From a virus: a stretch of 34,650 nucleotides of DNA. Every line of letters starts with the position of its first letter. Position 1 is the first letter of the stretch. This document shows positions 1 through 26,245 of this stretch, in pieces. The translations under genes and the position numbers were made by a program. The stretch covers positions 1-34,650 of the IMG/VR virus record IMGVR_UViG_3300028031_000009; one strand, given 5' to 3'. The notes under the pieces are model-generated. The model was not told the DNA's origin. It worked only from the letters and a program-made list of their open reading frames with translations, and did not search any database.

Positions 1-1800
1 AGTACGGTATATACAGATAACAAAACAATGGTTGGATTTAATAACCTCGGTTTTGATTATCCGATTATACATTATATTATGAATAATTATGATAACCTAA
101 CTGTTGAAGACATATACAGTGTGGCACAAAGATTAATAAACACACATTGGAATTTAAGGCATACAAATATAGTACGAAAACCACTAATCAAACAACTAGA
201 CTTAATGAAGGTTCATCATTTTGACAATGCTGCACGTTTAACATCTTTAAAAATGTTAGAAATAAATATGCAGATGTCAAACGTTGAAGACTTACCTTTT
301 AAACCAGGTACGGTGCTAACAGATGCGCAAATGGATACACTTATTGAATATAATAAGCATGATGTATTATCTACTTTTAATTTTTATAAAGAATCAAAAG
401 AACAAATCCAGTTAAGGTATGATTTATCAGAGATATATGGCGTCGATATGTTAAATCATTCTGATTCTAAAATTGGTTCTCAAATATTTATAAAATCATT
501 AGAAGAAGAAGGGGTGAGATGTTTTGGGTATACTAACGGCCAGCGGCAAGCTATCCAAACTATAAGAAAGGATGTATCTTTAGTAGATTGTATACTACCT
601 TACATCAACTTTGAGAATTATGAGTTTAAAGGGATTTTAAAAATATTTGAAAATAAAATAATTAGCGATACCAAAGGTGTATTTAAAGATTTAAAATGTA
701 TTGTTAACAATGTCGAATATATATTTGGTGTTGGAGGTTTACATGCCTCAGTAAGTAATAAATCTATATTAACTACTAACAAACGTTCAATAGTAGATGT
801 AGATGTAAAAAGTTATTACCCTAATCTAGCTATAAAAAATCAAATATACCCTGCTCATTTAAGCGAGCAGTTTTGTTATATCTATGAAAAGTTATATCTT
901 GAAAGAAATAAATGCCCTAAATCATCTGCATTGAACGCGGCTTTAAAGATTGCATTAAATGGGACTTATGGAAATAGCGGCAATAAGTATTCTCCTTTCT
1001 ATGACATAAAATACTTATTAACCATAACAATAAGTGGTCAATTATCGTTATTGATGCTTGTAGATATGTTGTTAAAAATACCAACTCTTGAGATTGTTCA
1101 ATGCAACACAGATGGTATAACTTATTCTGTTGATAACGAGTTTATTGATCTTTGTCAGCAAGAATGCAAGAAATGGGAAAATATTACTAATCTAGAATTA
1201 GAAACAGTTAATTATTCTCGATTTTGGGTAAGGGACGTTAATAATTATATTGCTGAATATGACGGTGGTTTAAAAAGAAAAGGGGCTTTTTGTTACGGCG
1301 ATGAAATTGGATGGCACCAGAATCATTCAATGCAGGTTGTAGCCAAGGCCTTGACAGCCTACTTTGTGCGAGGGCAGTCTGTTCAGTCATTTATAGAATC
1401 TCATGCTACTTTATATGATTTTATGATCGCTTTAAAGGTTCCTAAAACATCAAGGTTAATGTGGTCGGGTGTTCATTTTCCCTCTACATTGCGGTATGTT
1501 GTATCAGATGATGGAAGTCAGCTGACCAAGATAATGCCAGCAAAGGGCAAAGTAGGCGACTATAAACGGGCAAATAGTTTAGATAATGACTATTATGACT
1601 TTATAAAAGAACAAGTAGGATCTAAATGGGACGAAAGGATTAATACTAAGAATAAGTCGAAGTATGAGGATAGGACCATTTCAATTAATGCCGGATATGA
1701 TATTATTCCTTGCATGCACATTGATGATTTAGAGGGTGCAGATATTAACTACCAATTTTATATAGACCAGGCAAATAAAATAATTGATAAATTTAATTAA
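1..1800 (+). CDS. Family B DNA polymerase, 5'-truncated by the window edge
   Basis: Replicative DNA polymerase with proofreading exonuclease. The frame is open from base 1, so the gene begins upstream and the ATG at 28 is internal; 590 residues follow that ATG. Numbering from it, exonuclease motif II is FNNLGFD (Asp10) and motif III is YNKHD (Tyr108, Asp112). The exo I motif must lie outside the window. Polymerase motif A is DVKSYYP (Asp259), motif B is KIALNGTYG (Lys307), and motif C is CNTDGI (Asp362). Motif C has Asn where many family B enzymes have the first Asp of DTD; from memory, NTDG is common in phage members. The order exo-A-B-C is complete, so the visible part looks functional. It heads the early arm and presumably copies the phage genome together with the ligase downstream. 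Confidence 0.93.
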   Translation, partial: STVYTDNKTMVGFNNLGFDYPIIHYIMNNYDNLTVEDIYSVAQRLINTHWNLRHTNIVRKPLIKQLDLMKVHHFDNAARLTSLKMLEINMQMSNVEDLPFKPGTVLTDAQMDTLIEYNKHDVLSTFNFYKESKEQIQLRYDLSEIYGVDMLNHSDSKIGSQIFIKSLEEEGVRCFGYTNGQRQAIQTIRKDVSLVDCILPYINFENYEFKGILKIFENKIISDTKGVFKDLKCIVNNVEYIFGVGGLHASVSNKSILTTNKRSIVDVDVKSYYPNLAIKNQIYPAHLSEQFCYIYEKLYLERNKCPKSSALNAALKIALNGTYGNSGNKYSPFYDIKYLLTITISGQLSLLMLVDMLLKIPTLEIVQCNTDGITYSVDNEFIDLCQQECKKWENITNLELETVNYSRFWVRDVNNYIAEYDGGLKRKGAFCYGDEIGWHQNHSMQVVAKALTAYFVRGQSVQSFIESHATLYDFMIALKVPKTSRLMWSGVHFPSTLRYVVSDDGSQLTKIMPAKGKVGDYKRANSLDNDYYDFIKEQVGSKWDERINTKNKSKYEDRTISINAGYDIIPCMHIDDLEGADINYQFYIDQANKIIDKFN

Positions 1801-2383: not shown

Positions 2384-2656
2384 ATGAATGATATTTTTGA
2401 AAGATCTATAGATTTATTACATAACGCCCCCCCCCAGGTGATATGGGAAATGGATGAAATTACTTACCTTCGATGTAGACAGCTCAGGGATAGTCAAGGC
2501 AAGTACTTATGGATTAAAGATATAGAGTTTCCCGGTATGCCGGGAACATTATTTGGTTATGACATACACATACGTGGGGGTAAAAATAAGATACATCGTC
2601 TGTTATACTTATTTGAGAGTGGGACATCTGTTATTATAGATGAGGCTAAAAAATGA
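2384..2656 (+). CDS. Capsid-segment-like early protein (90 aa)
   Basis: Residues about 30-55 (RQLRDSQGKYLW, then PGMPGTLFG) align with the phage's own HK97-fold capsid protein (RQFKDSQGQYLW, then PGNPSTLLG). This is a highly recurrent segment of that fold. The protein is too short to be a capsid subunit and lies in the early, opposite-strand arm, so a structural role is not obvious. A nine-base C tract (2427-2435) in codons 15-17 could switch the frame if it changed length. The ribosome site is GGGGA, and the stop overlaps the next start (ATGA). It may be a capsid-interacting or decoy protein, or an exapted capsid fragment; this is inference. Confidence 0.75.
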   Translation: MNDIFERSIDLLHNAPPQVIWEMDEITYLRCRQLRDSQGKYLWIKDIEFPGMPGTLFGYDIHIRGGKNKIHRLLYLFESGTSVIIDEAKK

Positions 2657-2862
2657 ACAGGAAGGAATTTAGGGCGCACTTAATTAAGTCTGGCTGGGTG
2701 GTTAATAAAGTTAATAAAAATATATTAACAAATGATAAGGGTAGAATGAGAATTAAACTCAAACCGAAATATTACAAAGCTACTATAAAAAATGATCTAA
2801 ATAAATGGCAAAAGTTTAGACAGAGTGTATACTCAATAATAAAACCAGGTACTGAAAAATGA
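2653..2862 (+). CDS. Small basic protein, tandem relative of the next gene (69 aa)
   Basis: Overlaps its neighbour on each side by ATGA, so it is translationally coupled to both. The start MNRKEFRAHLIKSGW matches MTKHQFKEYLIKQGY of the next gene in the pattern M-x-[RK]-x-[FQ]-[FK]-x-x-LIK-x-G-[WY]. Both proteins are about 68 residues long and rich in Lys, Tyr and Asn. This suggests a tandem duplication followed by strong divergence. No known domain recognised. Confidence 0.7.
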   Translation: MNRKEFRAHLIKSGWVVNKVNKNILTNDKGRMRIKLKPKYYKATIKNDLNKWQKFRQSVYSIIKPGTEK

Positions 2863-3062
2863 CGAAACATCAATTTAAAGAATATTTGATAAAGCAGGGA
2901 TATAAACAAGAAGCATTTTATCCAAATAGACTTACTTTTGATAAGGAGATACGTTGCAGTTTAGGGACAAAATCGTTTAGGTTAGAAAAGTTAGTTTGTG
3001 GAGAATGGGAATTAGTATATTCTGACAAATATACTAAAGCTAAACATTACCGCTTTTTTTGA
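2859..3062 (+). CDS. Small protein, tandem relative of the previous gene (67 aa)
   Basis: Starts in the ATGA overlap with the 2653 gene and shares its N-terminal helix-like start (LIK-x-G-Y). The C-terminal half (KLVCGEWELVYSDKY) looks beta-rich. There is no membrane segment and no catalytic motif. It lies just before the large coiled-coil gene and is probably expressed with it. Function unknown. Confidence 0.7.
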   Translation: MTKHQFKEYLIKQGYKQEAFYPNRLTFDKEIRCSLGTKSFRLEKLVCGEWELVYSDKYTKAKHYRFF

Positions 3063-4521: not shown

Positions 4522-5562
4522 ATGACAAAATTATATGCAAGAGATGCAAAAAATAATATTCGGGTGTGGGGTATTGAGCCTTATGGAACTTATGGTTTAG
4601 TCACAAGTAGTGGCCTTCTAGGTGGCAGTATCACAAACAAGATTATTAAAGTAACACCAAAGGCAAACAGAACACAACGTGAACAAGTACAGCTAGAAAT
4701 AGAGTCAAGAATAAAAAGAAAAACAGATTCTGGCTTTGTTAAATCTGTTGAAGAAGCTGAAGCGAATGAAAGAACAAATGCCTTAGGTTTTAAAAGGCCA
4801 ATGTTGGCCATGGCTAAAGTTTTTGACTTTGACTCTGTGAATAGCCATGTACAGATTAAGTATGATGGTCTTAGATGCTTAATAACAAATATAAATGGAA
4901 AGCTATATGCTTATTCAAAAACTGGTCAAATATTTGATTGTATCGATCATATACTTGATGGTATAAAAATACCTGAGGGGGTAACAATCGACGGTGAATT
5001 ATACAGCCATAAGACACCTTTACAGACTATAAATAGTTGGGTAAGGAGAAAACAAAAGGATACAAAAAAGTTGGACTATAGGTGTTATGATACTGTAAAT
5101 GATCGTTGTTTTGAGGATCGGATAATTCAATTGCAAAAATATAACCTGGGTGAATTTGCAAGAGTAGTTAAAACCTGGAGGATAACAGAAATCAATATTA
5201 CTCGATTATTCAACGATGTTAGGGAAGAGGGTTATGAGGGACTAATTATTAGACAGCCTAATTTCAGTTACCAGAGTGGAAAAAGAAATAAAGCGATGAT
5301 TAAAGTCAAGCAGTTTTTGGATGGGGAATTTATCATTTGTGGTATAAATTCAACAAAGGATGGATTCGCCAGGTTACTTTTAAAAACTGCTACAGGTAGA
5401 TCATTTGTAGTTCTAGCTCCAGGAACTCATACTGAAAAAAGGGAAATATTAAACAACGTAGAAGAATATATTGGAACATTTATAAATATAACATATGCCC
5501 ACATGTCAACAGACGGTATACCTCAACAACCGATAGCAAGGTATTTTCGTGATTTTGAATAA
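4522..5562 (+). CDS. ATP-dependent DNA ligase (346 aa)
   Basis: Seals nicks in duplex DNA using ATP. The adenylation motif is KYDGLR (Lys113 would carry the AMP). Further nucleotidyltransferase motifs are IDGELY (III), EGLIIR (IV) and MIKVKQF (V). An OB-fold-like C-terminal part follows (residues about 255-346). The first 75 residues (VWGIEPYGTYGLVTSSGLLGG, then NRTQREQVQLEIESRIKRK) resemble the WGR-like N-terminal region of small phage ligases. The length is normal for compact phage and viral enzymes. It probably joins Okazaki fragments in replication by the upstream polymerase. Confidence 0.93.
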   Translation: MTKLYARDAKNNIRVWGIEPYGTYGLVTSSGLLGGSITNKIIKVTPKANRTQREQVQLEIESRIKRKTDSGFVKSVEEAEANERTNALGFKRPMLAMAKVFDFDSVNSHVQIKYDGLRCLITNINGKLYAYSKTGQIFDCIDHILDGIKIPEGVTIDGELYSHKTPLQTINSWVRRKQKDTKKLDYRCYDTVNDRCFEDRIIQLQKYNLGEFARVVKTWRITEINITRLFNDVREEGYEGLIIRQPNFSYQSGKRNKAMIKVKQFLDGEFIICGINSTKDGFARLLLKTATGRSFVVLAPGTHTEKREILNNVEEYIGTFINITYAHMSTDGIPQQPIARYFRDFE

Positions 5563-25036: not shown

Positions 25037-26245
25037 TTAAGTAGAAACTTTCATCAATACGAAGGCCTCAGGAAGCGTAACTTGACCACCAACACGTTTC
25101 TTGATTAAGAAACCGGTTTGGTCGTACTCGGCATATTTTTCAACTAATCGCTGAACTGTGACACCGGCTCTGTCACGAATTTTATATCCTTTGCGGAAGT
25201 CACCCAAAATAATTGGAAATGAATTAGCAGCAACGTCTGGTAATCCTTCAGGGTTAACAAGAGGTCGACCCAGTAATGTAGATGGATTACCAGGCTGAAC
25301 AGGAGGCTGCCATAAATATTGACCTTGACTATCTTTAAATTGACGGACAACCCCTTCAGTTGTACTATTCATAGCCCAGGTTGAATTCCGACGGTACATT
25401 TTTTTGATACTTTGCAACATATTGATGAGAGCATCAACACCATTGTTAGAACCATCTGACAACGCCCCTGCAACACCCGACGCCTTAAAATTAGCTTGTA
25501 CACGGTCATCCGAAATAATTCCTTGAGGCATTTTATCACCTGCTGCCGATGCAAAAGCATCATCTTCAGTCTCAGCAATAGCCATCGAGAACATGTCACG
25601 TAGCTCAGCCCACACATCAGCAGCGGAATCGTCCAAGGTATTGTTGGCAATTAAAGTTAGCGCTTTAAGATCAAAAATTTCGAGACGTTCACCACCTGCT
25701 TGCAAATCTTGTGGTAAAATTGCAAGATTGCGAGTTCCCCATGATACAACAGGTTTGGAAATCGCAGCCATTTGAACTACGTCCCTACCCGTTGAAGCAA
25801 CATTACAAATTGCTCTTAACTCAGCTTCATTATAAGCTTGAGTAATAATTTCAGTTTCAAAAGTTGATGGAACTAAAAAACCCCCGTCTTTATCCGATGA
25901 ACTAGACAGTGCTCGAATTTCATTTTCATCCATCGCGGCTCGACCGGTTTCGCCAAAGCCATAACGTATAAATTTATCAAATGCTGATTTGCGGGTCTGC
26001 AGTTCAGGGCTGTCAGCTTCATCACTTCCAGAACCCACAGAGGGGCGCTGTCCTGCAATAACCAAAGCATCATACTTACCACGCAGCTCAGTTAGGTCTG
26101 TATTGATTTTTTCAATAGTTTCCAAAGTCATTTTGTCAGCTGAGCCTGTCTTTCTAACTTCTTCAATTTTCACATCAACTGTTTTTGTCAATGCTTCATG
26201 CGCTTGTCGCATCTCATTGAACAATTTTTTTAATTCTTCATTCAT
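25037..26245 (-). CDS. Major capsid protein, HK97 fold (402 aa)
   Basis: Forms the icosahedral head. Residues about 1-75 are a charged helical delta domain (ELKKLFNEMRQAHEALTKTV and on) expected to be removed by the upstream protease. The mature part starts near RKSAFDKFIRYG. Typical segments follow: KDGGFLVPSTFETEII, then VSWGTRNL, LADLR-type WAELRDMFSMAIAETEDDAF, MPQGIISD, then RQFKDSQGQYLW and PGNPSTLLGRPLVNPEGLPD, ending GYKIRDRAGVTVQRL. The start overlaps the protease stop region (26245). GGAG ribosome site. Confidence 0.96.
   Translation of the reverse strand: MNEELKKLFNEMRQAHEALTKTVDVKIEEVRKTGSADKMTLETIEKINTDLTELRGKYDALVIAGQRPSVGSGSDEADSPELQTRKSAFDKFIRYGFGETGRAAMDENEIRALSSSSDKDGGFLVPSTFETEIITQAYNEAELRAICNVASTGRDVVQMAAISKPVVSWGTRNLAILPQDLQAGGERLEIFDLKALTLIANNTLDDSAADVWAELRDMFSMAIAETEDDAFASAAGDKMPQGIISDDRVQANFKASGVAGALSDGSNNGVDALINMLQSIKKMYRRNSTWAMNSTTEGVVRQFKDSQGQYLWQPPVQPGNPSTLLGRPLVNPEGLPDVAANSFPIILGDFRKGYKIRDRAGVTVQRLVEKYAEYDQTGFLIKKRVGGQVTLPEAFVLMKVST

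Follow-up and report, generated by a model that had tools for sequence, protein, structure and literature searches.

A small early-region phage gene with a probable origin in an HK97-type major capsid protein fragment

Results

Gene arrangement of the phage

The window, a virus record analysed over its whole length of 34.65 kb, belongs to a siphovirus-type phage whose plus strand carries early-type genes up to about 8.4 kb (DNA polymerase, small genes and an ATP-dependent ligase) and whose minus strand carries the terminase, portal, protease, major capsid protein (MCP) and tape-measure genes. The stretch between polymerase and ligase is early and accessory-rich, and holds a 90-residue open reading frame (ORF) with a capsid-like segment. 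Since this ORF is co-directed with the polymerase and ligase genes and opposite to the late genes, it is presumably expressed early; its location in the early arm, on the strand opposite that of the MCP gene, is as described in the original prediction. The features considered below are as follows.

28..1800, plus strand: DNA polymerase, the upstream early gene (phrog_1252, E = 1.3e-167), truncated by the window start (compared with 644 aa in a relative)
2384..2656 (coordinates include the stop codon), plus strand: capsid-like small gene, 90 aa, ATG start, supported by the ORF and an orthologue
2384..2434, plus strand: codons 1-17, weakly like the MCP helix that comes before the segment (IDLLH), four residues being deleted (hhalign, piecewise shuffle test)
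2435..2572, plus strand: codons 18-63, homologue of the MCP A-domain (W-x-M ... RxLxDxxGxYLW ... PGxPxTLxG; profile searches, shuffles, short-ORF null)
2573..2653, plus strand: codons 64-90, C-terminal part in which the shuffle test detects no relation to capsids, well kept in the orthologue
2859..3062, plus strand: 67-aa gene, directly after the capsid-like gene in the relative and separated from it by a 69-aa gene in the window phage
4522..5562, plus strand: ATP-dependent DNA ligase, the early gene downstream, with conserved synteny in the relative
25037..26245, minus strand: HK97-type MCP of the window phage, 402 aa (PF05065, E = 4.9e-63), whose residues about 287-332 form the matching segment

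Extent of the capsid-like segment

The ORF contains RQLRDSQGKYLW followed by PGMPGTLFG, and the phage's own MCP contains RQFKDSQGQYLW followed by PGNPSTLLG. The nearly gap-free match claimed in the original prediction amounts to 18 identities over 38 positions (47%) with one single-residue gap (E = 5e-10 in a single BLASTP comparison), and profiles, shuffles and a null made of real ORFs all agree with it. The relation is wider than first reported: ORF residues 18-63 match MCP residues about 287-332, and profile-profile comparison, proposed at the outset as a check, aligns ORF residues 6-66 with MCP residues 271-334 at 97% probability (hhalign). From its place in HK97-type MCPs, we take this MCP span to be part of the A-domain.

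Within the ORF, the signal is borne by residues 18-63, which reach 46.4 bits, a score equalled by none of 5,000 shuffles, on a profile that is biased upward by including MCPs found via the ORF itself. In a piecewise version of the shuffle test, the signal is borderline for residues 1-18 (180 of 5,000 shuffles score as well) and absent from residues 64-90 (1751 of 5,000). Visual inspection made it plausible that the latter correspond to the final A-domain strands, but this assignment was discarded as the shuffle statistics gave it no support. In the homologous part, three motifs follow one another in the same order and at the same distances as in MCPs, and its 46 residues correspond to about half of the small protein and to part of one MCP subdomain. 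As judged by these alignments, a capsid origin is demonstrable for roughly half of the protein and not for all of it. Among MCPs themselves, one (L096:1069-1386) has its conserved KDxxGxYLW loop interrupted in frame by about 24 additional residues.

Statistical strength of the match

Against curated families, the ORF scores 22.6 bits with TIGR01554 (E = 5e-5; cut-off 27.5) and 15.6 bits with PF05065 (E = 0.011; cut-off 24.2), reaching neither cut-off, and it matches PHROG major-head families with E = 5.8e-5 and 1.3e-3. All of its low-E-value matches in general libraries are to capsid families. A tblastn search of 50,697 phage genomes returned 31 records, in which the match was to an MCP wherever the gene was annotated as one or was opened; three matches labelled "hypothetical protein" are genes of full size that fall into the MCP profile. 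Nearly all database matches of the ORF are to MCPs of full length.

On an independent MCP profile, made without the ORF from sequences recruited through the phage's own MCP only, the ORF scores 21.8 bits, whereas the highest-scoring of 20,000 shuffles attains 7.9 bits. Stricter than shuffling is a null of 4,867 real short phage ORFs, drawn from all loci analysed and scored on a regional profile from the same independent MCPs: here the ORF ranks first (24.4 bits), followed by its orthologue (9.2 bits) and by the best unrelated ORF (8.0 bits). With the upward-biased profile that includes MCPs found via the ORF, the corresponding values are 44.3, 23.6 and 7.9 bits. Because the finding was picked from a large screen of windows, nominal E-values of about 1e-5 are weaker than they look, and the stronger case comes from the gap that separates the ORF from other real ORFs. 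By these sequence scores, a relation of the ORF to MCPs beyond chance is confirmed.

Orthologue, selection and age

The gene was found in two phages only. Its orthologue (L001:5974-6267) has 97 aa, shares 82% identity with it and belongs to a relative with a 95% identical MCP. It also lies between polymerase and ligase, even though in this relative, which retains the 67-aa gene, a number of the window's other small genes are missing. The search for the family in other phages, proposed at the outset, yielded this one copy; no additional copy was detected in the 50,697 phage genomes (tblastn), plasmids, species genomes or viral contigs (four routes, the contig scans requiring near-exact matches of 7-8 residues, by which distant relatives would be missed). 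The gene is absent from five phages with 71-76% identical MCPs, an absence that is uninformative because the same five lack the polymerase of the window phage. A comparison of the two relatives gives a dS of 0.91 for the MCP, against 0.34-0.50 for the four early genes included; this contrast, together with the polymerase missing from phages with similar MCPs, suggests that the head and early modules have different histories.

Between the relatives, dN/dS is 0.24 for the capsid-like gene (dS 0.41), 0.14 for the polymerase, 0.11 for the ligase and 0.036 for the MCP, and the capsid-like gene evolves faster than the MCP (82% versus 95% identity). An orthologue at the same place and a dN/dS like that of the neighbours indicate that this is a real gene under purifying selection, and its retention while other small genes are missing argues that it is not a mere hitch-hiker. 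At the level of individual residues, the orthologue carries the changes Y41H, W43C and G51D at positions with 93-100% conservation among the aligned MCPs; R32, D36, G39, L42, P53, T55, L56 and G58 are capsid-like in both copies, and residues 64-90 are largely kept. The best database matches of the orthologue are again mostly MCPs.

The ORF scores 88 with its own MCP and 96 with that of a Pseudomonas phage, and at the DNA level it resembles its own MCP gene in a single collinear 24-nt stretch only. That the phage recently duplicated its own MCP was considered and rejected, the ORF being no closer to this MCP than to distant ones; equal distance from own and foreign MCPs indicates instead that the capsid-like segment is an old fragment and not a recent copy.

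Two local features of the gene were also observed. A run of nine C (window about 2428-2436) has no counterpart in the orthologue, which is one codon shorter there; this run is a possible hazard for homopolymer slippage or assembly, though the frame is kept. A hairpin (TTCCCGG-TATG-CCGGGAA, window 2529-2546; L001 6137-6154) lies further downstream, and the relative keeps a stem in which one C-G pair has become A-T through a change on each side, at the third positions of two proline codons. The hairpin is not followed by a proper U-tract and could be due to chance.

Structure prediction

AlphaFold2 run on the ORF and its orthologue only gave poorly agreeing, low-confidence, beta-rich models (pLDDT 62.5), and no capsid was found among the 50 PDB matches listed for this low-confidence model. 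Upon addition of 29 MCP fragments to the alignment, pLDDT rose to 67.4 with the order helix-strand-helix-strand-strand-strand, and capsids became the top matches (best E 0.02 in the PDB and 0.0038 in a viral library). Because the second alignment consisted mostly of capsids, the resulting model speaks for compatibility with the capsid fold, not for identity of fold. The same low-confidence capsid-like model is also matched by an uncharacterised 138-aa protein of Pseudomonas phage Noxifer (BFVD A0A1Y0SV83; probability 0.87, E 0.12), possibly a second free-standing capsid-subdomain protein.

Discussion

Origin and proposed role

The origin of the gene from an MCP fragment, raised in the original prediction as an exapted capsid fragment, is well supported by the homology of residues 18-63 to the MCP A-domain. 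The sequence shows the source to be the A-domain strand-helix-loop-strand element of an HK97-type MCP that ends in the LxG strand. A new C-terminal part was attached to this element or completed it, and the resulting small gene has been kept independently, under purifying selection, between polymerase and ligase. Early in infection, its product would most likely bind and occupy another protein, the specific form of this activity being a putative non-activating decoy that sits on a host capsid-recognising factor before late MCP synthesis begins. We give a probability of about 0.35 to this reading as a whole, in which an exapted MCP fragment acts as an early accessory binding protein with a capsid-sensing decoy as its specific form. 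Accessory host-interaction genes are often fast-changing and narrowly distributed, and a small early accessory gene that evolves faster than the MCP fits a host-factor binder. At the least, the locus is a clear case of part of a structural protein becoming a new gene.

Several bacterial defences sense capsid proteins, which trigger CapRel (PMC9712102) and staphylococcal Thoeris (PMC11312562); Lit, in the accounts cited by these two papers, is activated by a capsid-derived peptide. The phage protein DSAD1, in turn, blocks DSR2 by occupying the site of its tail-tube trigger (PMC11087589). With capsid-sensing immunity documented and a structural-protein sensor blocked at its trigger site, a decoy would be the leading mechanism and a reasonable first hypothesis by analogy, and a reused piece of capsid is a candidate for blunting such sensing. 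The fully specified version, a free-standing early mimic of one capsid subdomain that pre-emptively blocks capsid-sensing immunity as a self-antigen decoy, is nevertheless improbable. A mimic of that capsid surface would be expected to keep Y41, W43 and G51, so their loss from the orthologue counts against it, and a trigger-like decoy could activate the sensor instead. The substitutions that affect CapRel escape and specificity fall in capsid residues 113-124, far in sequence from this segment (PMC9712102), and this stretch of the capsid was not linked to any known defence sensor. PADLOC defence models gave no match for the capsid-like protein, its orthologue or four small neighbours, and literature searches returned no description of such a protein.

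Alternative explanations

Weighted equally with the early binder and decoy reading is an exaptation that has nothing to do with capsids any longer, whereby a small early protein that binds a host or replication factor was built from the fragment and owes its likeness to MCPs to ancestry. The loss of otherwise invariant capsid residues from the orthologue, next to the retention of the capsid-unlike residues 64-90, speaks for a function that has ceased to depend on resemblance to capsids, and equal distance from own and foreign MCPs points the same way. Against it stand the eight positions that remain capsid-like in both copies, and selection on individual capsid features is not measurable from two sequences. 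Because the only known orthologue has lost three near-invariant residues, present-day mimicry is doubtful, and the suggestion in the original prediction that the protein currently mimics or interferes with capsids is not supported: the segment covers about half of the protein and part of one MCP subdomain, and leaves residues 64-90 without signal.

A less probable possibility is that the protein modulates capsid assembly by inserting into or capping subunits, thereby poisoning rival phages or satellites or tuning assembly of its own phage. Its relation to the MCP and the ability of Ccm, a divergent capsid homologue (24% identity), to redirect assembly (PMC8569155) are consistent with such a role; however, Ccm is a 355-aa protein that is itself present in the shell as pentamers, whereas the ORF retains part of the A-domain and lacks the N-arm, E-loop and P-domain that make inter-capsomer contacts. 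In addition, a poison made early would harm the phage's own assembly, and the fragment is no closer to its own than to foreign MCPs.

Chance or convergent similarity in a small protein of another fold is unlikely. It would be in line with Pfam and NCBIfam scores under the curated cut-offs, with the beta-rich two-sequence model, with selection of the finding from a large screen and with an orthologue near background on the unbiased profile; it is opposed by the collinear, equally spaced motifs, by the wide separation of the ORF from 4,867 real ORFs on a profile built without it, and by the orthologue, which ranks directly after it there and also retrieves mostly MCPs. Finally, a functionless, decaying relic of a capsid gene, for which partial capsid content and rapid change relative to the MCP might speak, is very improbable given an ORF that stays intact in both phages despite indels, a dN/dS of 0.24, and its retention where other small genes differ.

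Comparison with known systems

Like HK97-type MCPs (PF05065, TIGR01554, phrog_10 and phrog_15928), the ORF bears the WxM...RxLxDxxGxYLW...GxPxTLxG motifs with equal spacing in residues 18-63. Unlike them, it has 90 residues instead of about 400, is without N-arm, E-loop and P-domain, is encoded by an early gene on the other strand and has a C-terminal third that is unrelated in sequence; its homology is thus to an A-domain segment and not to the complete fold, with scores under the curated family cut-offs. Ccm of SaPIbov5, which redirects the assembly of phage phi12 (PMC8569155), resembles it in being a divergent capsid homologue that is found outside the usual head-gene position and does not build the standard capsid of its own genome. 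Ccm differs in being a complete, satellite-encoded HK97-fold protein of 355 aa that is built into shells, whereas the ORF is a phage-encoded fragment with about 46 homologous residues. By mode of action only, the protein may be likened to DSAD1, a small phage protein that occupies the site at which a structural protein sets off immunity, and of which it would be a functional analogue.
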